Assembly (NCBI GenBank): GCA_030017685.1
Contig: JASEHH010000021.1
Location: 1-43,268 of the forward strand
DNA length: 43,268 nt
DNA from: Thermodesulfobacteriota bacterium
GTDB lineage: Bacteria > Desulfobacterota > BSN033 > UBA1163
Reading direction: 5' to 3'
Shown here: piece by piece, positions 7,949-30,405 of the stretch
Numbering within the stretch: position 1 is the first letter of the stretch
Layout of the letters: every line of letters begins with the position of its first letter
Translations under genes and position numbers: made by a program
The notes under the pieces: generated by a model
What the model was told of the DNA's origin: nothing
The model's database searches: none
Seen by the model: the letters and a program-made list of their open reading frames with translations, nothing else

Positions 7949-8101
7949 CGGAAATATGAACGCCAGGCAATCATTAAAGGTTTAAACTTAATGCTGAATC
8001 GATAGTTTAAGGGTTATTTTGGAATGCAGACTTGTGGTGAAGTGGCCAGTGAGGGATTAACCCGACAGGGCCTGGGAAGTTCACTTTTATGATAGACTAT
8101 A

Positions 8102-9112
8102 TTATTTGTCATCATACCAGCAATGTAGATCTTCCTCGAGGGAATCACCCGTTAAGGCGAGGGCTAAGCTGCGGCAGCCGCGACAGTCTTTTATCTCACA
8201 TGCCCCACATTTGCCTTTGAGGTTTTCTTTTCTCCTTAACATCTCCAATAACTCTGATTCCTCCCATATCTTTTTCAAAGGGATTTTTAGAAGGTTCCCT
8301 ATCGAAACAGGAAACCTCCGGCACGGGAAAACATCGCCGGTTGGCATCACACAGAGGCCATCCTTTCCGATGACACAGGGAGCGCCTAAAAGCTCCGGCT
8401 CCTCTCCATTGAAACTCACCTGAAAAGCCTGATAAGGAAGAAAAGGATTCTCCTCTTCGATTGAGAAAAAATCCAACAGCATTTGTACCATTTCTCTCCA
8501 TTCTTCTTTACTCAGAACCTCATCCATCCCCTTTCTTCCCCTGCCCCATGGGATGAACCGTTCGATGATGAATCCCTGGATACCCAATTCTTGAGACAGC
8601 GTAAAAAAAGAGGGTAATTTTCTAAAATTTCTTTTCATTACAGTAAACATCAGAATGATTTCAAAGGAAGTCTCTTTCCTGATCAAAGGAATATTTTGTA
8701 CAACCTTCTTAAAAGTCCCCTCCTGACGGATCGAGTCATTCGTCTCTGCATCTGCTCCATCCAGAGAGATCTTGATCTTTTTCAATTTGGAAAAAGCAGA
8801 GAGTCTTTTCACTAATTCTTGATCAAAGAGGAGGCCATTCGTGATGATACCCAACTCATCTATTAGAGGGCTTTGATCAAGGTATCGTAGGAGGGGAAAT
8901 AATTCGGGTTTGAGAAGGGGCTCCCCACCGGTGAGATGGATACAGGCTGTTTGATCCCATTCTTTTATTGAGGCGAGGATATTATCAGAAACCTTCTGAA
9001 GCCCTGGCCAATCAAGATCCTTCTCCCTCGAGAAATCTTCCTGATAGCAGTGCTGGCACTGAAGGTTGCAGAGGTTAGTAATATGCCATTGAATATGGAA
9101 TTGCTCTTTCAT
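8102..9112 (-). CDS. Radical SAM protein with SPASM domain
   Basis: 336 aa. C15, C19 and C22 form the CxxxCxxC site for the SAM-binding [4Fe-4S] cluster, and TGGEPLL near residue 60 is the SAM-binding GGE motif. The C-terminal third is a SPASM/twitch cluster domain: CVMPTGDVFPCRR, SIGN, then a Cys cluster CGACEIKDCRGC. Relatives mature peptides or modify tetrapyrroles (PqqE, NirJ, AhbC/D types); the exact substrate is not evident. The ATG has no Shine-Dalgarno and follows the SHOCT gene stop by 12 bases, which suggests translational coupling. A peptide-modifying role toward the neighbour is only a possibility. Confidence 0.85.
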   Translation of the reverse strand: MKEQFHIQWHITNLCNLQCQHCYQEDFSREKDLDWPGLQKVSDNILASIKEWDQTACIHLTGGEPLLKPELFPLLRYLDQSPLIDELGIITNGLLFDQELVKRLSAFSKLKKIKISLDGADAETNDSIRQEGTFKKVVQNIPLIRKETSFEIILMFTVMKRNFRKLPSFFTLSQELGIQGFIIERFIPWGRGRKGMDEVLSKEEWREMVQMLLDFFSIEEENPFLPYQAFQVSFNGEEPELLGAPCVIGKDGLCVMPTGDVFPCRRFPVSIGNLLKIPLKKIWEESELLEMLRRKENLKGKCGACEIKDCRGCRSLALALTGDSLEEDLHCWYDDK

Positions 9113-9124
9113 CGGAGGGCTAAA

Positions 9125-9397
9125 CTACAGAAGATCTTTCTTCTTCTGTTCGAATTCTTCTTTGTCGATCTCACCTCGGGCATACCGCCTTTTCAGGATA
9201 TCGAGGGCGGACTCTTCAGGTTTTACTGTTTTTGACATTCCTACAAGCCAGCGAATAAGAAAGATCAAACCCACAACGACAAGTCCCCAGAAGATGATCA
9301 TGAAGATCCAGCCCATCCCCCACCCCCACATCATCCCCGGTCCCATGCCATAATCTCGCCAGCCCCATTGACAAAGAAAATTTCCACTATCCCACAT
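9125..9397 (-). CDS. SHOCT-domain small membrane protein
   Basis: 90 aa from the ATG at 9397, preferred over 9421 because AAAGGAGAAGG lies just upstream. The N-terminal 30 residues are rich in Trp, Gly and Met ([14 protein letters not shown]). One membrane helix follows at about 26-48, and then a C-terminal SHOCT motif ([20 protein letters not shown]). SHOCT domains are short C-terminal oligomerisation modules and these proteins are abundant in envelope and metal-stress regions. It is cotranscribed with the radical SAM gene. Confidence 0.8.
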
Positions 9398-9512
9398 TTC
9401 CTTCTCCTTTCCTAACTTCAAAAAAGTCGGTTTAAGTATTTTAGTAAAAATAGTTTAAAATTGAAAGCCAAATAATTTTAATTCACTTAATTCAACTCAG
9501 GGATGGTAGGCC

Positions 9513-9560
9513 TTGACAAAGCATCTCTTAAGGCTTAATATGTGAACAGATATTCATGTA
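9513..9560 (+). promoter_or_regulatory. Promoter and CadC/SmtB-type operator of the ArsR gene
   Basis: A consensus sigma70 promoter: TTGACA at 9513-9518 and TAATAT at 9536-9541 with exactly 17 bases between. Immediately downstream, at 9541-9560, lies the imperfect palindrome TGAACA-GA-TATTCA, the classic core of ArsR/SmtB operators. A repressor bound here would cover the transcription start, so the downstream repressor is probably autoregulated and induced by metal. The operator overlaps a possible GTG start at 9542, which argues for the ATG at 9578 as the real start. Confidence 0.75.
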
Positions 9561-9577
9561 AAATAACAGGATTGAAG

Positions 9578-9943
9578 ATGGTAACAAGAACCAAGAAAGA
9601 CACTTGTGAGGTTTTTTGTATTAACCAAAAAAAGGTGGATGCTGTCCGCAAGGTGATGCAAACTGACGGGGTCATTAAGAAACTGGCTGAGACTTTTAAG
9701 GTTCTTGGTGATCCTACCCGGACTCAAATTCTATATGCCCTCGCTCAGGATGAATTATGTGTATGTGATATAGCTGCCCTTCTTGGGAAGACACAATCTG
9801 CCATTTCCCACCAGCTTCGTGTCTTACGTAATCTCGATTTGGTCAAGTATAGAAAAGAGGGAAAGATTGCATATTACTCTCTTAACGACGCTCATATCCG
9901 GAACCTTTTTGCCGAGGGTCTCGAGCATGTAAAGAACCCATAA
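9578..9943 (+). CDS. ArsR/SmtB-family metal-sensing repressor, CadC type
   Basis: 121 aa. It matches CadC along its length. The N-terminal CEVFC (C10, C14) together with ELCVCD in the DNA-contacting helix region (C61, C63) gives the four thiolates of the Cd/Pb/Zn alpha3N site. D104, H106 and H117 fit the alpha5 zinc site. The winged helix is QSAISHQLRVLRNLDLV then KEGKIAYYSL. It should release its operator when Cd, Pb or Zn binds. The operator lies upstream, and the YnfA and P1B ATPase genes downstream on the same strand are its likely targets. Confidence 0.9.
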   Translation: MVTRTKKDTCEVFCINQKKVDAVRKVMQTDGVIKKLAETFKVLGDPTRTQILYALAQDELCVCDIAALLGKTQSAISHQLRVLRNLDLVKYRKEGKIAYYSLNDAHIRNLFAEGLEHVKNP

Positions 9944-9984
9944 ATTTTTTTAACTAATTTCATATGAATGATTGCTCAAATGTT

Positions 9985-10062
9985 TATAATAGAGGTGCCG
10001 TTCGAATAACGCGACCGAGGTCATAGACCTTTTTGAAAGACCTGGAACGGGAGGTAAGGTGA
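9985..10062 (+). promoter_or_regulatory. Possible second promoter and leader before the YnfA gene
   Basis: A TATAAT at 9985-9990 without a good -35, preceded by a loose TGAA/TCAA palindrome (about 9962-9982) that could be a second ArsR site. The leader holds a short hairpin AGGTC-ATA-GACCT followed by T5 near 10018-10035 and a GGGAGG ribosome binding site. Weak evidence; the operon may simply read through from the ArsR promoter. Confidence 0.3.
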
Positions 10063-10392
10063 ATGGAAATTGTCAAATCACTCTTCTATTTTGTCCTTGC
10101 TGGGTTATGCGAAATAGGCGGGGGATATCTTGTTTGGCTCTGGTTGCGGGAGGGCAAGAGTAGCTGGTTTGCTCTCTTGGGGGCACCCATTCTAATTCTC
10201 TACGGGATTATCCCAACGCTGCAACCGGCCAACTTCGGACGGGTTTATGCGGCTTATGGGGGCATTTTCATCGTTCTTTCTATTCTATGGGGTTGGCTGG
10301 TCGATAAGATAGCTCCGGATCGGTTTGACCTCGTCGGCGGTTTTATTGCCCTCATTGGCATCTCTGTGATCATGTATTGGCCGAGGGGCTGA
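10063..10392 (+). CDS. YnfA/UPF0060 family small membrane protein
   Basis: 109 aa with four membrane helices. Family hallmarks are [17 protein letters not shown] near the start, [15 protein letters not shown] in the middle and [14 protein letters not shown] near the end. UPF0060 proteins resemble small multidrug resistance transporters, but their substrate is not settled. The position between a CadC-type repressor and a P1B ATPase suggests a role in metal or metalloid tolerance; this is inference. The gene has GGGAGG upstream and is followed 44 bases later by the Sec-ATPase gene. Confidence 0.9.
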
Positions 10393-10436
10393 AAGGCTCA
10401 CCCTAAATGCCACACTCCATTAAGGAGAGAATAATC

Positions 10437-12767
10437 ATGGAAGTCCAGATAAAAGGCAAAGATATCTTGCAAATCAAGGTCCCTGGCGTGGACTGACCGA
10501 ACTGTGCCGCAAGCCTCCAGGAGGAGGTCAAGAAGATTGAAGGAGTGGAATCTGCAGAGTTCAACCTTATGACCTCTCAGTTAAAGATAATGGGAATCCA
10601 GCAAAAGATGAAACGCCAGGCCATTGTTCAAGCGATTGAGAGACTTGGGCACAAAGTTGAGGACGAAGATAGGATCAAACAGGGCCTTCTTCACATAGAA
10701 GGAATGGATTGTGAGGACGAGACTTCTCTTATCGAGAAGAAGATGAAAAGTTTGAAAGGCCTGGAATCCTTTCAGGTCGATCTGATGTCTCAAACACTCC
10801 GTGTTCAATATGATCCTGCTCTCCTTTCCGTCCAGGAGATTATCAAGTCCATCGCAGAGACTGGAATGAAGGCAAGACTTGAGAGAGAAAGAGTAAAGGG
10901 CAAAGCCTGGTGGAAAGAACCGAGGATCCTTTCCCTCATTTCCTGTGGAGTTTTCACGATTGTAGCCTTCGTTCTTGAAAAGACTGGAATTGAACTGGCG
11001 AGCACAATCCTTTATGCCATTGCCGTAAGTGTTGGAGGATATTACCCAGCTCGAATGGGCCTCGCAGCCCTTAGAACCCTCACGTTGAATATACGTACCC
11101 TCATGATTTCAGGTGCCATCGGTGCGATCTTCTTAGGATTGTGGGAAGAGGCGGCTATTCTGGTATTTATCTACTCTCTGGGAGACGTGCTCGAAGCCTA
11201 TGCTGTGGATCGTGCCCGAGGAGCCCTAAGGGCTCTCACGGAATTGATGCCAAAAGAGGCCATGGTCAGACGAAACGGCGAAGAACTGACACTTCCCGTG
11301 GAAGAGGTTCGATTGGGTGAGACGATCATCATTAAACCCGGGGAAAGGATTCCGTTGGATGGGCATGTGGTTTCAGGATCTTCGGCTGTAGACGAGGCTC
11401 CGATCACCGGGGAGCCAATCCCAGTGGTCAAAGAGAAGGGAGCGGAGGTCTTCGCAGGGACCATCAACCAGCGAGGAGTGCTGGAGGTGGAAGTCACCAA
11501 ACTTTCCAAAGATACGACCCTTGCCCGGATCATCCATTCCGTTGAAGAGGCCCAGGCCAAGAAGTCAAGTTTTCAGCGTTTCGGAGAGACCTTCGGCAAG
11601 ATCTATACGCCAGCCATGTTCGCTTTAGCTTTGGGAGTGATGTTTATTCCGGTTTGGTTTTTGGGAGGGACCTGGTCCCAATGGTTTTACAGGGGTCTGG
11701 TCGTTCTGGTCGTCTCCTGCTCCTGTGGTATCGCCCTTTCGATTCCCGTTGCCGTCGTGGCAGCCATTGGAAACGCAGCCCGAAATGGCATCCTCTTTAA
11801 GGGGGGTGTTTATCTGGAGAGTGCAGCAACCATCAAAGCCATTGCCTTTGATAAGACCGGTACCCTTACCATCGGTAGACCTCAGGTAACAGATGTCGTT
11901 CCCATTGGGAGTCGTAGTCGCAATGATATCCTTGGATTGGCTGCCTCTCTCGAATCCCGTTCTGAACACCCATTGGCCGAGGCCATCGTGCGAAAAGCCC
12001 GCGAAGAGGAGATTCCTTTTACTCCTGCAAAGGAGTTTGAGGCACTGGTTGGCCTTGGAGCAAGAGGAAAGCTGAATGGCGAAGAACTCTTTATAGGCGG
12101 GGTAAGGCTTTTTCTTGAACGAAAGATGCCAGTTGAATCGATCCAGCCTCTTGTCTCTTCTCTTGAAGAACAGGGAAAGACGACGATTCTGCTCGGGGAT
12201 AGTCGCGAGATTTTTGGGGTGATTGCCATTGCGGATCGGCTTCGTTCTGAAGCAAAAGAGGCAGTCCAAAAGTTGAAACAGATTGGAGTTCATAAGATAG
12301 TCATGCTTACTGGCGATAACGAAGGGACAGCTAAAGCGATTGCCCGCGAAGCTGGAATCGATCAATACTTTGCCCGCCTCCTCCCAGAAGACAAGGTTGA
12401 GAAGGTCAAGCAGTTAAGACTCGAAGGCAGTCGAATTGCGATGGTAGGCGATGGGATCAATGATGCACCGGCCATGGCCGTGTCCGATCTCGGAATCGCC
12501 ATGGGCGCTGCCGGAACCGACATTGCATTGGAGACATCTGACATTGCTTTGATGTCGGATGACCTTTCTAAACTTCCAGTTGCATTCAATCTCAGCAGGC
12601 GAACGGTTCACAATATCCGTCAAAATATCATACTTTCTCTGGCGATCATCGCATTTCTTGTTCCTGCGGCCCTGGCAGGATGGGTAGGAATGGTGCCGGG
12701 ACTTCTGATCAATGAGGCGGGTGGGCTGGCCGTGATCGTCAATGGACTTCGCCTGCTCAAGGATTAA
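10437..12767 (+). CDS. P1B-type heavy-metal ATPase with in-frame UGA (selenocysteine) in the first HMA domain
   Basis: 776 aa if UGA at 10494-10496 (codon 20) is read as Sec. AAGGAG precedes the ATG. The first HMA domain reads GVD-U-PNCAASL where relatives have GMDCxxC, and the frame is open and HMA-like on both sides of the UGA. A second HMA has GMDCEDET (C92). Then come the ATPase parts: TGE at about 324, DKTGT with D472, SEHPLAEA, TGDN, GDGINDAPA. The metal site in the membrane is CSC (428-430) instead of the usual CPC. The protein should export soft divalent metal (Zn/Cd/Pb class) from the cytosol. If UGA were a stop, translation from GTG 10545 would lose the first HMA motif. Confidence 0.85.
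10494..10528 (+). promoter_or_regulatory. UGA codon with bacterial SECIS-like hairpin (ATPase)
   Basis: UGA at 10494-10496 is followed by the hairpin GCCTCC / GGAGGT (10513-10528) with loop AGGA. The loop begins 22 nt after the UGA and has G in its second position, within the usual bacterial SECIS pattern (loop about 16-37 nt downstream, a G near the loop start). Confidence 0.65.
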
Positions 12768-12802
12768 AAGATTAAAAATATTTTTCAGATGGCCCTGGAT
12801 GG

Positions 12803-12831
12803 TTGAAAACCCGATTTAATTATGTTAAATT
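12803..12831 (+). promoter_or_regulatory. Probable promoter for the small Cys-rich gene
   Basis: TTGAAA at 12803-12808 and TAAATT at 12826-12831, 17 bases apart. The predicted transcription start is near 12838, only a few bases before the ATG at 12846, so the message would be almost leaderless. The same geometry occurs at the paralogous gene at 32134. Confidence 0.4.
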
Positions 12832-12845
12832 TTTTTTTAAAAGCA

Positions 12846-13166
12846 ATGATTAAAAAAGTCATTCATATTTTTACTTCTTTTCTGATTTTGCTCCCTCTCC
12901 TTACAGGGGTTTTCGTCTCCACCCCGTTATCGGGGGATATTCCTATCCCCTCATTTAAAAATATATGCCATATAGATTCCTGCAATTCTCATCTGCCTCA
13001 ATGTCCTCTATGCCCTTCCTCAAGCTTCGTTAATCCCTTTTTTCATCAGGTAGCAGGATCCCACTTACCCATCCCCAGTTCCTCTTTTAGCTTGATTGAC
13101 CCCAGCCATCTTTCCAATCAGGAATTTGTTAAATTCATATTCCACCCGCCAAAATCGATTCTTTAA
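12846..13166 (+). CDS. Small exported Cys-rich protein (copy 1 of 3)
   Basis: 106 aa from the ATG at 12846; that start is aligned with its paralogue at 32134 (both read AAGCAATG followed by an A-rich stretch). It has a signal peptide or N-terminal helix, then a Cys/Pro cluster (ICHIDSCNSHLPQCPLCPSSS) and a C-terminal FHPP. I do not recognise a named family. Small exported proteins with a C-terminal HPP/RPP motif recur beside metal-resistance genes, so periplasmic metal or thiol chemistry is inferred. It lies between the Sec-ATPase and the ResB/ResC cytochrome genes. Confidence 0.6.
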   Translation: MIKKVIHIFTSFLILLPLLTGVFVSTPLSGDIPIPSFKNICHIDSCNSHLPQCPLCPSSSFVNPFFHQVAGSHLPIPSSSFSLIDPSHLSNQEFVKFIFHPPKSIL

Positions 13167-13226
13167 AACGACTATCCTGATCCACTATTAGAACTATTAT
13201 CTCAATCTTCCCGGGAGTGGAAAAAT

Positions 13227-14363
13227 ATGAAAAAGCTGTTTAAACCCATCCATGGAGTGTTTCTCTCCCTGAAAACAACGATTTTCTTGCTCTTCACCAT
13301 TGCCCTGGTCTCTATTATTGGAACCCTGATCCCGCAACAGAAAGAAGCAGGTCAATATGTCGCCCAATATGGTCTGCTTCTTTACCGTCTCTTCGATCTG
13401 TTGGGCTTTTTCGATGTCTATGGTTCCTGGTGGTTCCGGCTTCTCTTAATCCTTCTCCTCGTTAATCTCGTCTTCTGCTCGGTGAGCCGGCTCCCCAGGA
13501 TTTCAACCCGGGGGAACTTGTCAAAAAAAGAGTGGGTTGGCCGACTCGGTCCCCACATCACTCATGCCAGCCTGATCGTCATTCTCGCAGGCTCCCTGAT
13601 TGGAAATATCTGGGGCTTCAAAGGGTTTGTAAACATTCCACAGGGAGAATCAATTGAGACTATCGCTTTGAAAGGTTCCCAAGAGATGCTGGGGCTCGAT
13701 TTCACCATCCGGTGTGACAAGTTCGCAGTGAGCCACTATCCCGGGACTGAGACTCCCAAGGAATATCTGAGTGAATTGATCGTCCTCGAGAAAGGCCAAG
13801 AGGTGTTCAAGAAGACGATCAGGGTGAACGACCCACTCCAATACAGGGGAGTCACGTTCTATCAGTCAAGCTATGGGTTTCTGCCTTCCCGGCCCGAGGA
13901 ACGGAAAGCCGAACTTGAGATCATTCCAAAAGGAAATGGCTCCAGGAGTTCTCGCTTGCAACTGGCCGAAGGGGAAACGAAGCAAGTTCAAGGGACAGAT
14001 TACAAGGTGGAGCTTGTCGCCCTGATCCCGGATTTTAGCCTGGGTGAAGGGAATCGCATCTTCTCCCGCTCCGACCAGCCGAACAACCCGGCTGTTCAAG
14101 TTAATATCTACCAAAATGGCAAATTGTCCTATAAAGGATGGGCGTTTCTGAAATACCCGGACTTTCATGGTTCAAGGAACGATACCCATCGGGTGAAGTT
14201 TATCAATTATTCGGGAGGGGAAAGACCTTATACCGGACTCATGGTCGTGAAGGACCCGGGAATCCCGGTTGTATGGGCCGGATTCGGATTGTTGATCCTC
14301 GGTCTCATTCTCTCGTTCTTCTTGCGCCGGAGATCTTTTCAGAAAGGAGGAAAAGATGATTAA
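13227..14363 (+). CDS. resB: Cytochrome c biogenesis protein ResB/Ccs1
   Basis: 378 aa. Three N-terminal membrane helices (about 13-33, 68-88 and 110-130), a large periplasmic domain containing the family motif VNDPLQYRGVTFYQSSYG near residue 200, and a last helix at about 350-368 form the standard ResB layout. With ResC it makes the System II heme exporter and apocytochrome ligase at the inner membrane. The motif GTLIPQQ is typical. It is shorter than many ResB proteins, but all parts are present. The next gene overlaps its end by eight bases. Confidence 0.9.
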   Translation: MKKLFKPIHGVFLSLKTTIFLLFTIALVSIIGTLIPQQKEAGQYVAQYGLLLYRLFDLLGFFDVYGSWWFRLLLILLLVNLVFCSVSRLPRISTRGNLSKKEWVGRLGPHITHASLIVILAGSLIGNIWGFKGFVNIPQGESIETIALKGSQEMLGLDFTIRCDKFAVSHYPGTETPKEYLSELIVLEKGQEVFKKTIRVNDPLQYRGVTFYQSSYGFLPSRPEERKAELEIIPKGNGSRSSRLQLAEGETKQVQGTDYKVELVALIPDFSLGEGNRIFSRSDQPNNPAVQVNIYQNGKLSYKGWAFLKYPDFHGSRNDTHRVKFINYSGGERPYTGLMVVKDPGIPVVWAGFGLLILGLILSFFLRRRSFQKGGKDD

Positions 14364-25980: not shown

Positions 25981-26056
25981 ACAAATTATCTGAACCTGAT
26001 TGCTTAATCTTCGGGAAGAAGAATGTGGTCGGTTGTCAATGGAGGTGAATATAGAA

Positions 26057-26638
26057 ATGAGAGAGATCGATTGTCGGGGCATGGCCTGTCCCCAACCTGT
26101 TATTACGGTAAAACAGGCATTGGAAGAAATGAAGGAGGATGAATTGACACTCATTGTGGATAATCCTTCCTCCTGTGAGAATGTTAAGCGATTCGCATTG
26201 GGTCAGGGATGTTCTGTGGAAGTGGAGAGTAGAGAAAGGGATTTCTATATTCGTATCCAAAAAGGTAGACCAATTGAGGAAGCGAAAATTCATCCAAAAG
26301 AAGAAAAAGTAGTGGTTTATATTAACTCTCACCTCCTTGGAGTCGGAGATGAGGCGCTGGGAAGATTCCTGATGAAGAATTTTTTAAAGACCCTTTTAGA
26401 GCTAAAGGTAAAACCGGATCGTGTGATCCTGATCAACAGCGGGGTGCAATTGGCGGCAGAAGAATCCGAGGCCTTGGAGATGCTCACGAAGTTATCAGAG
26501 TCCGGGACGGAGATCCTCTCCTGCGGCACCTGCCTCGACTTCTATGGATTGAAGGAGAAGATGAGGGTAGGAAGGGTTTCCAATATGTATGAAATCCTCC
26601 AGTCCCTTTTAGATGTTGATCGTTTGATCAAACCATGA
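26057..26638 (+). CDS. yedF: YedF, sulfurtransferase-like selenium metabolism protein
   Basis: 193 aa from the ATG at 26057, chosen because GGAGGTG lies nine bases upstream; earlier in-frame starts lack one. The TusA-like N-terminal domain has DCRGMACPQPV with C11 in the CPxP motif. The C-terminal part (about 85-190) is a DsrE-like domain with SCGTCLDFYGL (C156, C159). This two-domain layout is the YedF family, which tracks selenium use across genomes. It probably carries selenium or sulfur in persulfide form. First gene of a cluster leading to selD. Confidence 0.88.
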   Translation: MREIDCRGMACPQPVITVKQALEEMKEDELTLIVDNPSSCENVKRFALGQGCSVEVESRERDFYIRIQKGRPIEEAKIHPKEEKVVVYINSHLLGVGDEALGRFLMKNFLKTLLELKVKPDRVILINSGVQLAAEESEALEMLTKLSESGTEILSCGTCLDFYGLKEKMRVGRVSNMYEILQSLLDVDRLIKP

Positions 26639-26712
26639 TGAAAGGATCGTTCCACCAATTAATAAATGCCAAAAAGTATCGCCGACCATACATGAAAAAG
26701 GGAGGGTGAACC

Positions 26713-27912
26713 ATGAAGCGATGGACTAAGGTCTATGATGATATTGCCATTGTGTTTTACCGTTTGGTATGGAGAAGGGCATGGCCCATATGGGTTGGGG
26801 CGTTGGCGCTTGCTTTTGCGAATATCTTTATGTTTGCTTATGCCCGGGCATTGGGGGTCTTTCCCCAGATGGCGATGTGGGGCAGTTGGGTCTATAATCT
26901 TCTCGGTATCAAGGTAGAGGCGCCGTTTGCCGCCGTCCCTCTAACTCCTCCTCATCTCGACATCCATAGCATGATTGATTTCGGGATAGTCTTTGGCGTT
27001 GCCATCGCAGCTCTCATTTCTGAAGAGTTTAAGATCAGAAAAGATGACTGGCAGGGATATCTGGCGGCCATTGCAGGAGGAGTGCTGATGGGTTTCGGAA
27101 CGGTTTTAATGCCGCCATGTAATGTGGGGGGGTTCTACACCGCCACCATGGCACTCTCTTTGGGTGGGCCAGTAGCTGCTTTAGGACTTCTCCTGGGCGG
27201 GTATGTAGGCGGACTTTTTCTAAAGTGGCAAGCAAACCAAGCTGCCAATGCAGTCGATTTCAGTGCGGCGCCTGTAGGTGAACCCGTAAAAAAAGCCGGG
27301 GCCTCACTCCAGCCATATATTGGAGTGGCAATCGGTATCCTTCTTGCTATAGTGGCTTTCATATATTTCTCGCTGGGGAAACCGAAGTTCACAGGTTTAC
27401 TGCTTTTCGGTGCGTTGTTCGGAATCATCTTCCAGCGCTCAAGGCTATGTATGGCGGCTGCCTTTCGTGAAATCTTGGTAAGTAGGAATGGCACCGTCAT
27501 GAAATGGATATTGTTCAGCATCGCGATCGGGACTGTTGGCTTTGCGATCCTCAAATCTCAGGGGTATCAACAGATGCATTTTGTATTTCCTGCGGGATTG
27601 CATACGGTCGTTGGCGGATTCATCTTTGGGATAGGAATGGTAATAGCTGGCGGCTGTGGAGTGGGCATTCTCTGGCGCTCCGCAGAAGGTTATGTCCGTG
27701 CCTGGATAGCTCTTATTGCAGGGGCATTGACATCTGGATCATGGGTCCTTATCTATGGGCATCGGGTGGGCGAGGGATGGTTGTATGGAAAACCCTTTTC
27801 CCTCGGGCATCAATTCGGATGGTTTGGCGGAACAGCACTGATCCTTTTGTTTCTCGCCTGTTTTTATATCTTGATCACTTATGTGGAGGCAACGAAAAAT
27901 GAAAAAAATTAA
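26713..27912 (+). CDS. yedE: YedE-family membrane protein linked to selenium metabolism
   Basis: 399 aa with about ten membrane helices in two halves. Each half has the YeeE/YedE pore motif with a conserved Cys: MPPCNVGGFYTATMALSLGGP, RSRLCMAAAFREI and GGCGVGILWRSAEG. YeeE homologues take up thiosulfate; the YedE branch found with yedF and selD is thought to move a selenium compound across the inner membrane. It has AGGGAGG upstream and overlaps the tusA-like gene by 14 bases. Confidence 0.88.
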   Translation: MKRWTKVYDDIAIVFYRLVWRRAWPIWVGALALAFANIFMFAYARALGVFPQMAMWGSWVYNLLGIKVEAPFAAVPLTPPHLDIHSMIDFGIVFGVAIAALISEEFKIRKDDWQGYLAAIAGGVLMGFGTVLMPPCNVGGFYTATMALSLGGPVAALGLLLGGYVGGLFLKWQANQAANAVDFSAAPVGEPVKKAGASLQPYIGVAIGILLAIVAFIYFSLGKPKFTGLLLFGALFGIIFQRSRLCMAAAFREILVSRNGTVMKWILFSIAIGTVGFAILKSQGYQQMHFVFPAGLHTVVGGFIFGIGMVIAGGCGVGILWRSAEGYVRAWIALIAGALTSGSWVLIYGHRVGEGWLYGKPFSLGHQFGWFGGTALILLFLACFYILITYVEATKNEKN

Positions 27913-28153
27913 AACCATAAAAGTGGGTGAAAGACATTATCAGGTGGACATGAGAGGGTGGATGTGCCCTTATCCCAAGTATGCGGTAGAATCATTGATC
28001 CGAAAGCTTGAAGACAACAATCGAATGGATATGCTTGTAGATTGCCCTTCTGCCCCTGATGATGTGCCAAAAGTGGTGAAAGCAATGGGTGGAAAAGTCC
28101 CAGAGGTAAGCCAGGTCGGAAGCGGCGAATGGCGGATAGTTATCGTCAAATAA
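27899..28153 (+). CDS. TusA-like sulfur/selenium carrier protein
   Basis: 84 aa from the ATG at 27899 (GTGGAGG upstream). The SirA/TusA fold has DMRGWMCPYPKYAVESL with the active C23 in a complete CPxP motif. It overlaps the end of yedE. YedE and TusA pairs are common; the carrier likely accepts the sulfur or selenium atom that the membrane protein delivers. Unlike the TusA next to sulfite reductase, this copy keeps the second proline. Confidence 0.88.
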   Translation: MKKIKTIKVGERHYQVDMRGWMCPYPKYAVESLIRKLEDNNRMDMLVDCPSAPDDVPKVVKAMGGKVPEVSQVGSGEWRIVIVK

Positions 28154-28223
28154 AACAATAAGGATCTTTTTAATTATTTAGAAAATTAATCAGATAACTT
28201 CAAATGATCAGGAGGATAATTTT

Positions 28224-29240
28224 ATGGCAAATAAAGAAATTAAATGGTCCATTTTAGGATTGGCTGTCGTCCTTCTTCTGTTTAATGTTTCTGAGGCAAA
28301 AGAGAAAGCTATAGAAGTGACCTTTAAGCTAAATCTGAAAGCACCGGAAAATTCAAAAGAGGTGGGGCTCTGGATCCCATATCCGGTATCTGATGAAAAC
28401 CAGATCATAGAGGATGTAAGGATTGATGGCAATTATTCCTCCCGTGGTGTTTACAAAGAAAAGGAATTTGGCAACTCGATCCTCTATACGGAATGGAAAA
28501 ACCTAACGAAAGAAAGGACCCTCACTTATACCTTTAAAATAAGAAGAAAAGAGGTCGTGAAGAAGGACTTTCCCAACGACGAACAACCCTTGAACAAAAA
28601 AGAATTTGCAAAGTTCCTTATGCCAACCAGTCTCGGCCCAACTTCTGGAAAAGTGAAGGAAACCGCAGAAAATATTACAAGGGGAAAAAAGACCACCTTT
28701 GTCAAAGCGAGGGCGATTTATGATTGGATCGTGGATAATATGTATCGTGACCCCCAGATAAAGGGCTGTGGCATTGGGGATGTGGAAAGGCTCCTTGAAA
28801 GTTTGGGTGGTAAATGTGGGGACATCCACTCTGTCTATGTTGCCCTGGCAAGAAGCGTAGGTGTCCCTGCACGAGAAATTTTTGGAATCCGTATTCCAAA
28901 GGGAAAAGAGGGAGATATGACGAAGGCCCAACATTGCTGGGCAGAGTTCTACCTCCCGGGATATGGCTGGGTGCCCGTTGATCCATCGGATGTTAGAAAA
29001 ATCATGCTTGAGAAGAAATTAAATTTAGGAGAGGAGAGGGATTACAGGGAATACTATTTTGGCGCCGTGGATGAAAATAGGATCGCCTATGGGATGGGCA
29101 GAAACCTCATCCTCAACCCTCCCCAGAGAGATGGAAACCTGAATTATTTTATGTATCCTTATGCAGAGGCGGATGGAAAGGCACTGGATGATTTATTTGG
29201 ATTCAATTTAGGATATACAATCTCTTTTAAGGAACTCTAA
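28224..29240 (+). CDS. Exported transglutaminase-like cysteine protease-fold protein
   Basis: 338 aa. An N-terminal hydrophobic segment (about 9-25) serves as signal or anchor. An N-terminal beta domain (about 28-130) precedes the transglutaminase core, with catalytic C198 in GGKCGDIHSVYVALARSVGVPAR, H237 in AQHCWAEF and D253 in WVPVDPSD. The triad is intact, so it is probably a periplasmic peptidase or amide-forming enzyme. It lies between the tusA-like gene and selD and is likely cotranscribed with the former. A link to selenium is unexplained. Confidence 0.88.
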   Translation: MANKEIKWSILGLAVVLLLFNVSEAKEKAIEVTFKLNLKAPENSKEVGLWIPYPVSDENQIIEDVRIDGNYSSRGVYKEKEFGNSILYTEWKNLTKERTLTYTFKIRRKEVVKKDFPNDEQPLNKKEFAKFLMPTSLGPTSGKVKETAENITRGKKTTFVKARAIYDWIVDNMYRDPQIKGCGIGDVERLLESLGGKCGDIHSVYVALARSVGVPAREIFGIRIPKGKEGDMTKAQHCWAEFYLPGYGWVPVDPSDVRKIMLEKKLNLGEERDYREYYFGAVDENRIAYGMGRNLILNPPQRDGNLNYFMYPYAEADGKALDDLFGFNLGYTISFKEL

Positions 29241-29252
29241 GAGGAATAACAG

Positions 29253-29304
29253 CCCCCCACCCTCCCTTCCAAACTACAAAAGGGGGAAAGATGAGGGTGG
29301 GGGG
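29253..29304 (+). terminator. Strong hairpin after the transglutaminase gene
   Basis: Perfect 12-bp inverted repeat, CCCCCCACCCTC at 29253-29264 and GAGGGTGGGGGG at 29293-29304. It has no T tail, so it could be a pause, a 3' protecting hairpin or an attenuator before selD, which starts 25 bases later. Confidence 0.5.
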
Positions 29305-29328
29305 AACAGAAGGCTAAATTTGAGGTAG

Positions 29329-30405
29329 ATGATGACTTTCTTCAGAAAAAAAAAGACTCTGATCAGAAAAAAAAAGACTCTGACCGGACTCTCCCGCACC
29401 TGCGGCTGAGCGGCAAAAATCGGTCCGACAGATCTGTCGGAAGCGCTGAAAGCATTGAAGCCTCCCCAGGATCCAAACCTCCTGGTAGGTTTTGAGACCT
29501 GTGATGATGCGGCTGTTTATCGTCTGTCAGATGACCTGGCCTTCATCAGTACCGCCGATTTCATCACACCTCCTGTGGACGACCCTTACTGGTTTGGCCA
29601 GATTGCGGCAGCCAATTCGCTATCGGATGTATATGCGATGGGAGGAAAACCGCTGACAGCCCTGAATCTCATCATGTTTCCAATGAAAAAGCTTGGGGCG
29701 ACTCTTTTAAGAGAAATACTCCGAGGGGGATCGGATAAGGTTTTAGAAGCAGGCGCTTCCATTGCCGGTGGTCATTCGGTGGATGACAATGAGCCCAAGT
29801 ATGGTCTGGCCGTAACAGGAGTGGTTCATCCTGAACGCATCCTGACCAATTGCGGCGCCAAAGATGGCGACGCCTTGATTCTCACCAAGCCCCTGGGCAC
29901 AGGAGTTTTATTTAACGCCTGCCGTTCCAAAAAGCTTCCCTTCCGCGAGTTAGAATTTATTCTGCCTCAGATCGCCTCACTCAATAAGAATGCCTTGGAA
30001 ATTGCTTTGAATTTCGATATCCATGCATGCACCGACATAACGGGATTTGGTATCGTCGGACACGCATTGGAGATGGCCAAGGGAAGCGGGGTGGGGATCA
30101 ACCTCTTCTATGACAAGCTTCCTTTCTATCCAAATGCACTTCATATGTATCGAAAAGGCGAAACCACAGGAAGCAATATAGCCAACAGAAAATTGGCCGA
30201 AGGATTATTTGAAAAATCAAAAAACTTATCCAGGGAGGAAGAGGAATTGCTGTTTGATCCTCAAACATCCGGTGGGCTTTTGCTTGCCCTGCCTTCCACC
30301 CATGCTGACCAGCTCACCATGGAATTGAGAAAGGCAGGTATGGAGACGGCTGTGCAGGTGGGTGAAGCAATGACAACTGACAGGCCATCGGTAAGGATTG
30401 TCTGA
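29329..30405 (+). CDS. selD: Selenophosphate synthetase SelD with in-frame UGA (selenocysteine)
   Basis: 358 aa if UGA at 29407-29409 (codon 27) is Sec. Start ATG 29329 (GAGGT just upstream; ATG 29332 is also possible). The catalytic segment reads RTCG-U-AAKIGP, with U27 and K30 in the places of E. coli C17 and K20. The rest is complete SelD: DDAAVYRL, STADFITP, NSLSDVYAMGGKPL, GGHSVDD and DPQTSGGLLLA. The enzyme makes selenophosphate from ATP and selenide, the selenium donor for Sec-tRNA. A 21-bp tandem duplication extends the N-terminus. The open frame without recoding would start at 29455 and lack the active site. Confidence 0.92.
29343..29384 (+). repeat. In-frame 21-bp tandem duplication in selD
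   Basis: Two units, 29343-29363 and 29364-29384, differ only in the last base. Each has a run of nine A. In the selD frame they encode RKKKTLI and RKKKTLT, a basic N-terminal extension before the catalytic loop. Confidence 0.85.
29407..29441 (+). promoter_or_regulatory. UGA codon with bacterial SECIS-like hairpin (selD)
   Basis: UGA at 29407-29409, then a perfect 7-bp stem TCCGACA / TGTCGGA (29424-29441) with loop GATC. The loop begins 21 nt after UGA and its first base is G. Best of the three SECIS candidates in the window. Confidence 0.8.

Follow-up and report, generated by a model that had tools for sequence, protein, structure and literature searches.

We found that an in-frame UGA at codon 20 of a P1B-type heavy-metal ATPase gene is almost certainly decoded as selenocysteine (Sec), as judged from the gene and its relatives. 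On top of Sec decoding, the product is probably a metal-exporting selenoprotein pump whose U/C site would bind or sense metal. The gene lies at 10437 to 12767 in the window, by which we mean the whole 43,268-nucleotide stretch that was analyzed (contig JASEHH010000021.1 of the Thermodesulfobacteriota assembly GCA_030017685.1). All the features described here are on the forward strand.

The gene has 776 codons, and its single internal stop is the TGA at 10494 to 10496, within QIKVPGVD*PNCAASLQEEV. We read the frame through this TGA and gave the U to search tools as C throughout. The resulting protein matched TIGR01525 at 625 bits (cutoff, 346), and Pfam identified the E1-E2 ATPase and hydrolase domains; FDKTGTLT is present in the translation. 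Pfam also found two HMA stretches in the read-through protein (HMA, 82.3 bits) versus one in the open reading frame (ORF) from GTG 10545 (48.2 bits), which agrees with the original prediction that the HMA domain is continuous across the UGA. The first HMA domain (HMA1) is at 10473 to 10655 (Pfam residues 13 to 73) and was also recovered as an own-genome HMA match containing one TGA. In the PDB alignments listed, the first Cys of CxxC in solved HMA domains aligns with codon 20. The UGA had been claimed to replace the first Cys of a GMDCxxC motif. The position of the first Cys is correct, but the letters are not, as the motif reads GVD-U-PNC. The predicted Sec is the first position of U-P-N-C, which sits inside a TIGR01525 protein, and U20 and C23 make up the U/C pair of HMA1. 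The second HMA domain (HMA2; 10689 to 10865), found in the translation and by an own-genome HMA match, has the motif GMDCEDE with one Cys. AlphaFold2 modeled HMA1 as strand-helix-strand-strand-helix, with residue 20 immediately preceding helix 1 (single sequence; last strand not called; pLDDT, 70; pTM, 0.42).

We found TGA at the same codon in two further genomes, G011 (81% identity over residues 1 to 245) and G010 (73 to 74% over 206 residues), each of which comes from a different genus within the family of the window genome. Because the contig ends after residue 206 of the G010 copy and the G011 copy is in two pieces at two contig ends, only the window shows the whole gene. Besides the window's own genome, these were the two genomes with a close relative in our searches (a 59-genome survey, 23 genomes of the class, and 395 of the phylum). 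The Sec-ATPase gene is rare among close relatives, being present in 3 of 17 genomes of the family and 1 of 10 genomes of the genus. Between the window and G011, we counted 3 synonymous differences and 1 nonsynonymous difference in codons 1 to 19, and for codons 21 to 206, dS was 1.90 and dN was 0.13. Between the window and G010, codons 1 to 19 (18 compared) had 10 synonymous differences on 11.3 sites and 7 nonsynonymous differences on 42.7 sites, with a dS of 2.25 and a dN of 0.15 for codons 21 to 206. By these counts, substitution is protein-like both upstream and downstream of the TGA. Homologues without Cys at this column had been named as evidence that would speak against Sec; we found TGT or TGC in all 16 homologues covering it, a set that we selected and that is not a full draw.

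These comparisons bear on the idea that the TGA is a sequencing error or that a decaying gene recently acquired a nonsense mutation. The one point that we found in its favor is that the assembly consists of 326 contigs. Against it stand the same TGA in two other genera, 776 codons without another stop, and a dN well below dS. Since the TGA recurs in two other genera, it is no isolated read error, and although we saw assemblies and not raw reads, the corrected read without TGA that had been raised as a possible objection did not emerge. We rejected a read error or pseudogene on the basis of the identical TGA in three genera and regard either as scarcely credible.

The start of the gene is also consistent with read-through. 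As had been predicted, a Shine-Dalgarno sequence and an ATG lie 19 codons 5' of the UGA: AAGGAG is at 10422 to 10427 (10422 to 10436 with its spacer), followed by ATG 10437. The upstream sequence is nearly identical in G011, and Met-Glu at 10437 is identical in all three genes. A second in-frame ATG at 10407 reads ATA in G011. The mechanical ORF list puts the gene start 3' of the TGA, at GTG 10545, so that mechanical gene calling trims the Sec domain off this ATPase. If that start were the true one, the UGA would be a real stop that ends a 19-residue leader peptide, and the pump would begin downstream (e.g., at GTG 10545), which would remove half of HMA1. In keeping with this, all three genes have GTG as codon 37, and CSC-type relatives (described below) manage without HMA1. 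However, codons 1 to 19 are HMA sequence, and without them the HMA1 stretch disappears. In addition, protein-like substitution carries on past the UGA in three genera, and in the window, GGAG abuts GTG 10545 with zero spacing. We consider a real stop very improbable and rejected the leader peptide because protein-like change runs on across the UGA.

We searched more widely for the Sec form. A protein search of 395 genomes of the phylum (E values up to 1e-17) matched 15 genomes, of which 3 had TGA, 2 had TAG, and 10 had no stop. In the two with TAG (G255 and G349), the alignment reaches past the pump's ATG into the preceding frame and takes in the stop codon of that frame. The DNA pattern G-x-D-UGA-xx-C-A occurred at 32 places in 31 of the 395 genomes. 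We translated 30 of the 32; two of these are HMA genes, in the window and in G011, and 28 look like chance matches. G010 has ACT as its next codon and is therefore not matched, and so narrow a pattern could overlook other Sec-HMA forms as well. A scan of genome contigs with the window protein returned 24 relatives at no more than 45% identity, and the 23 covering the membrane site have CPC or SPC. The same scan of viral contigs found no relatives. On plasmids, at least 5,000 records matched the window protein, all at less than 60% identity among the matches listed.

Nucleotide identity along the gene is uneven. Over window positions 10437 to 11040, the window and G011 are 87 to 93% identical in the first 120 nt, 65 to 67% in the next 180 nt, and 70 to 85% in the remainder, and G011 (L072) and G010 (L074) are 72 to 77% identical over the first 120 nt and 77 to 90% beyond. 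The steps suggest recombination or transfer near codon 40.

Downstream of the UGA, folding and comparison of the three genes identified a SECIS-like hairpin, GCCUCC-AGGA-GGAGGU, at 10513 to 10528. It has a 6-bp stem and a 4-nt loop, and its energies are -9.0 kcal/mol in the window, -9.0 kcal/mol in G011, and -5.8 kcal/mol in G010. The G010 stem differs at two positions, with A-U replacing G-U and U-G replacing C-G, and pairing is kept in both. No pair is altered on both sides among the three genes, and slid pairings score worse. With three sequences and no two-sided pair change, a pair-shuffle control therefore has no power. The original prediction of a hairpin at a suitable distance held up, in that the apical loop is 22 nt after the UGA and the hairpin is in the same place in all three ATPase genes, though its stability does not exceed that of shuffled sequences (50-nt fold; z, 0.20; 105 of 200).

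We compared this hairpin with others by using our own geometry rule, modeled on that of bSECISearch. Among the window's 1,769 TGA triplets, 1.0% have a hairpin of such geometry equalling the stability of that in the window gene, and the G010 hairpin (-5.8) is near the 5th percentile of these triplets. The hairpin of the window selD gene is similar, with a loop of 4 nt at 21 nt and -9.2 kcal/mol versus 22 nt and -9.0 kcal/mol in the ATPase gene. For the 16 Cys homologues, the best in-range hairpin was -5.7, at 34 nt, and the three with their best hairpin at 20 to 22 nt had values of -2.2 or weaker; the scan gives the best hairpin per gene only, and weaker ones near 22 nt in the Cys genes are not displayed. 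A search of Rfam with positions 8000 to 13500 gave no match at the gathering score.

The genome has the machinery for Sec. Absence of selA, selB, and selC had been put forward as grounds for abandoning the prediction, and we found selA (632 bits; cutoff, 268), selB (373.9 bits; cutoff, 242), and tRNA-Sec (82 bits; cutoff, 47), the last with agreement from ARAGORN (anticodon tca). Two selD genes scored over the cutoff, C295:38347-39267 and C121:29380-30297, each with an in-frame TGA. The second is the SelD that had been said to be encoded in the window; it was identified by a profile match (29380 to 30297), has its own TGA at 29407, and is outside the ATPase operon. As it is about 17 kb from the ATPase gene, it shows Sec use and not a link. 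We also found tRNA-Sec over the cutoff in all 14 further genomes chosen, including G010 and G011, as well as four family genomes without the ATPase (G001, G005, G008, and G013). Sec decoding is thus common in the relatives, and having the machinery does not by itself point to the ATPase gene. Elsewhere in the window, positions 26000 to 30297 are selenium linked, with a YedF-like frame (identified by eye), a YedE-like Sulf_transp protein (Pfam, 171 bits), and selD.

The pump itself belongs with the CSC type. The transmembrane metal-site segment, VVSCSCGIAL (11709 to 11738; translation and alignment), has CSC and not CPC, and the TM8 region reads INEAGG. CSC was seen in the window copy only, the G010 and G011 copies not being sequenced across that site. 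In a tree of 33 rows, which were our choice and not a full draw and of which five are long branches, the 10 CSC rows formed one clade with support of 100/100. This clade holds the window protein; proteins of five genomes of the phylum (G366, G255, G349, G238, and G333); and plasmid proteins from Vibrio, Enterococcus (two), and Planococcus. Core identity to the window protein was 51 to 61% for CSC rows and 33 to 52% for CPC/SPC rows; the ranges overlap, and identity alone therefore does not part CSC from the other rows. The CSC membrane motif possibly marks the P1B-7 subgroup. In the table of one paper, the P1B-7 substrate is given as unknown (PMC7558416).

The ZntA-type Zn/Cd/Pb P1B-2 ATPases share the core architecture and an N-terminal HMA domain with the window ATPase. 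In contrast to it, they have CPC and, near the C terminus, ADxG. We rejected ZntA membership on the basis of the CSC and INEAGG motifs, the separate clade, and the ZntA models, whose scores were high yet below their cutoffs (585 versus 1,005 and 521 versus 1,240). With the CSC-motif P1B ATPases, the window ATPase has in common CSC, the NE motif, and the HMA2-like domain. In the five CSC relatives from the same phylum, the frame contains the second HMA domain but not the first, unlike in the window protein and the G010 and G011 copies, which have HMA1 with Sec. Among the CSC genes whose start was examined, the Sec-bearing one alone has HMA1. Because the CSC relatives lack HMA1, a pump of this type does not require the Sec site. 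HMA1 with Sec would be either an addition in this family or a domain lost elsewhere.

Sec in this class of proteins has been predicted before. A 2007 paper in NAR is reportedly a source of the known Sec P-type ATPase family. P-type heavy-metal ATPases (TIGR01525/COG2217/pfam00122) with a predicted Sec in UxxC appear in the tables of three papers (PMC2398784, PMC9312934, and PMC13188914), and another lists the Sec P-type ATPase in 25 organisms and 32 proteins (PMC5029168). The window ATPase is like the listed ones (for example, ABB15669.1) in family and UxxC, a comparison by description only. Tables also include Sec predicted in mercury- or metal-binding proteins, among them MerP (PMC2398784 and PMC13188914). 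NF041115 matched the window HMA domains at 59.8 bits, below its cutoff of 95. Sec-MerP and NF041115 are stand-alone small proteins (74 positions for NF041115), whereas the window HMA1 belongs to a pump. A search of literature titles for Sec in the HMA domain of a P-type ATPase found none, which at the title level is weak evidence of absence, and a word search did not find "ATPase" in the available text of two 2006-2007 surveys and the deep-Sep paper. Since Sec P-type ATPases are already listed as predictions, we regard the window gene as adding a new member, with good support, to that predicted family. Possibly new aspects are the CSC pump type and the occurrence of HMA1 only on the Sec-bearing CSC gene among those examined. 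A 2026 review lists such ATPases as predictions and calls for study of what Sec transport proteins do in metal detoxification (PMC13188914).

In the window, the gene order is ArsR-type regulator, YnfA-family protein, and ATPase. The ArsR/SmtB-family metalloregulator (9542 to 9943; NF033788, 102.7 bits; cutoff, 55) contains ELCVCD, which we take to be an ArsR/CadC metal site. Between it and the ATPase gene is a YnfA-family small membrane protein (10063 to 10392; NF002586, 153.7 bits; cutoff, 114).

We propose that SelB, guided by the hairpin 3' of the UGA, would bring Sec-tRNA to codon 20 and that the full 776-residue P1B ATPase would be made through UGA read-through. HMA1 would offer the selenolate/thiolate pair of U20 and C23 to the cytosol. 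A selenolate is deprotonated at neutral pH and is softer than a thiolate. The pair may capture or sense a soft metal ion and then pass the metal to the pump or unlock it, and the ion would be exported via the CSC membrane site, driven by ATP hydrolysis. The upstream ArsR regulator probably turns the operon on when metal is present. Soft-metal export is our best guess for the function of the pump. Soft-metal binding or a redox response by the U/C pair appears chemically reasonable, and the pair may additionally render HMA1 redox sensitive. The role of N-terminal HMA domains in P1B pumps, delivery versus release of autoinhibition, is debated, and an LpCopA study favors sensing (PMC11970713). A selenolate would sharpen either role. 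We tentatively suggest that this CSC-type P1B pump with a family-specific extra HMA1 may have a selenium-tuned capture or sensing gate or be redox switched, a possibility that we hold with some reserve. Candidate ions for such a gate would be very soft ones, such as Hg(II), Cu(I), Ag(I), or Cd(II).

The chief rival to the metal role accepts that Sec is decoded and holds that the U/C pair serves mainly to sense redox state or electrophiles, or as a resolving pair, and not as a metal ligand. Selenoproteins of known function are mostly oxidoreductases, and UxxC recurs among the thiol-oxidoreductase families in the same table (PMC2398784). The metal work could conceivably be done by HMA2 and the CSC site alone. 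Yet the sequence of the domain is that of a metal-binding HMA, and the gene row includes the ArsR-type metalloregulator. We consider a mainly redox role rather unlikely and favor the metal-binding or metal-sensing pump. Sec in the ion-capturing domain of a transporter would be among the few cases of selenium as a metal ligand or sensor. For such a case, the locus supplies a whole gene, clear Cys-type comparisons, and an upstream metalloregulator.

The relatives have different neighbors. The G011 ATPase is preceded, in this order, by a FeoB-like frame, a small zinc-ribbon-like protein, a DtxR/MntR-like regulator, and YnfA, and G010 has the same order without YnfA. The FeoB matches were 200 and 235 bits (cutoff, 316), the frames being shortened by the stretch or by the start in the ORF list. 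As the FeoB and regulator matches are below curated cutoffs, these genes are named by similarity. Near the CSC pump of G349 is an RND-efflux-like frame (identified by eye). Judged by gene content, the contexts concur on metal handling and not on one metal.

We made several further observations on neighboring genes. The zinc-ribbon-like protein ahead of the Sec pump (L072, 1795 to 1995; L074, 1283 to 1606) is small and Cys rich and was recognized by eye; an NCBIfam search with the L072 protein gave no match. On the Vibrio, Enterococcus, and Planococcus plasmids, the CSC-type P1B pumps (L109, L111, L112, and L113) are accompanied by an annotated ArsR-family regulator in three of the four stretches, the fourth being without annotation. 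L111 and L112 have a short "cation transporter" gene just 5' of the pump, and that of L111 is HMA-like by its match to the window protein. The CSC pumps of G238 and G333 (L105 and L106) have open frames that span about 905 codons and exceed those of their kin in length, and they are preceded by a similar frame of 150 to 190 codons that is PadR-like by eye.
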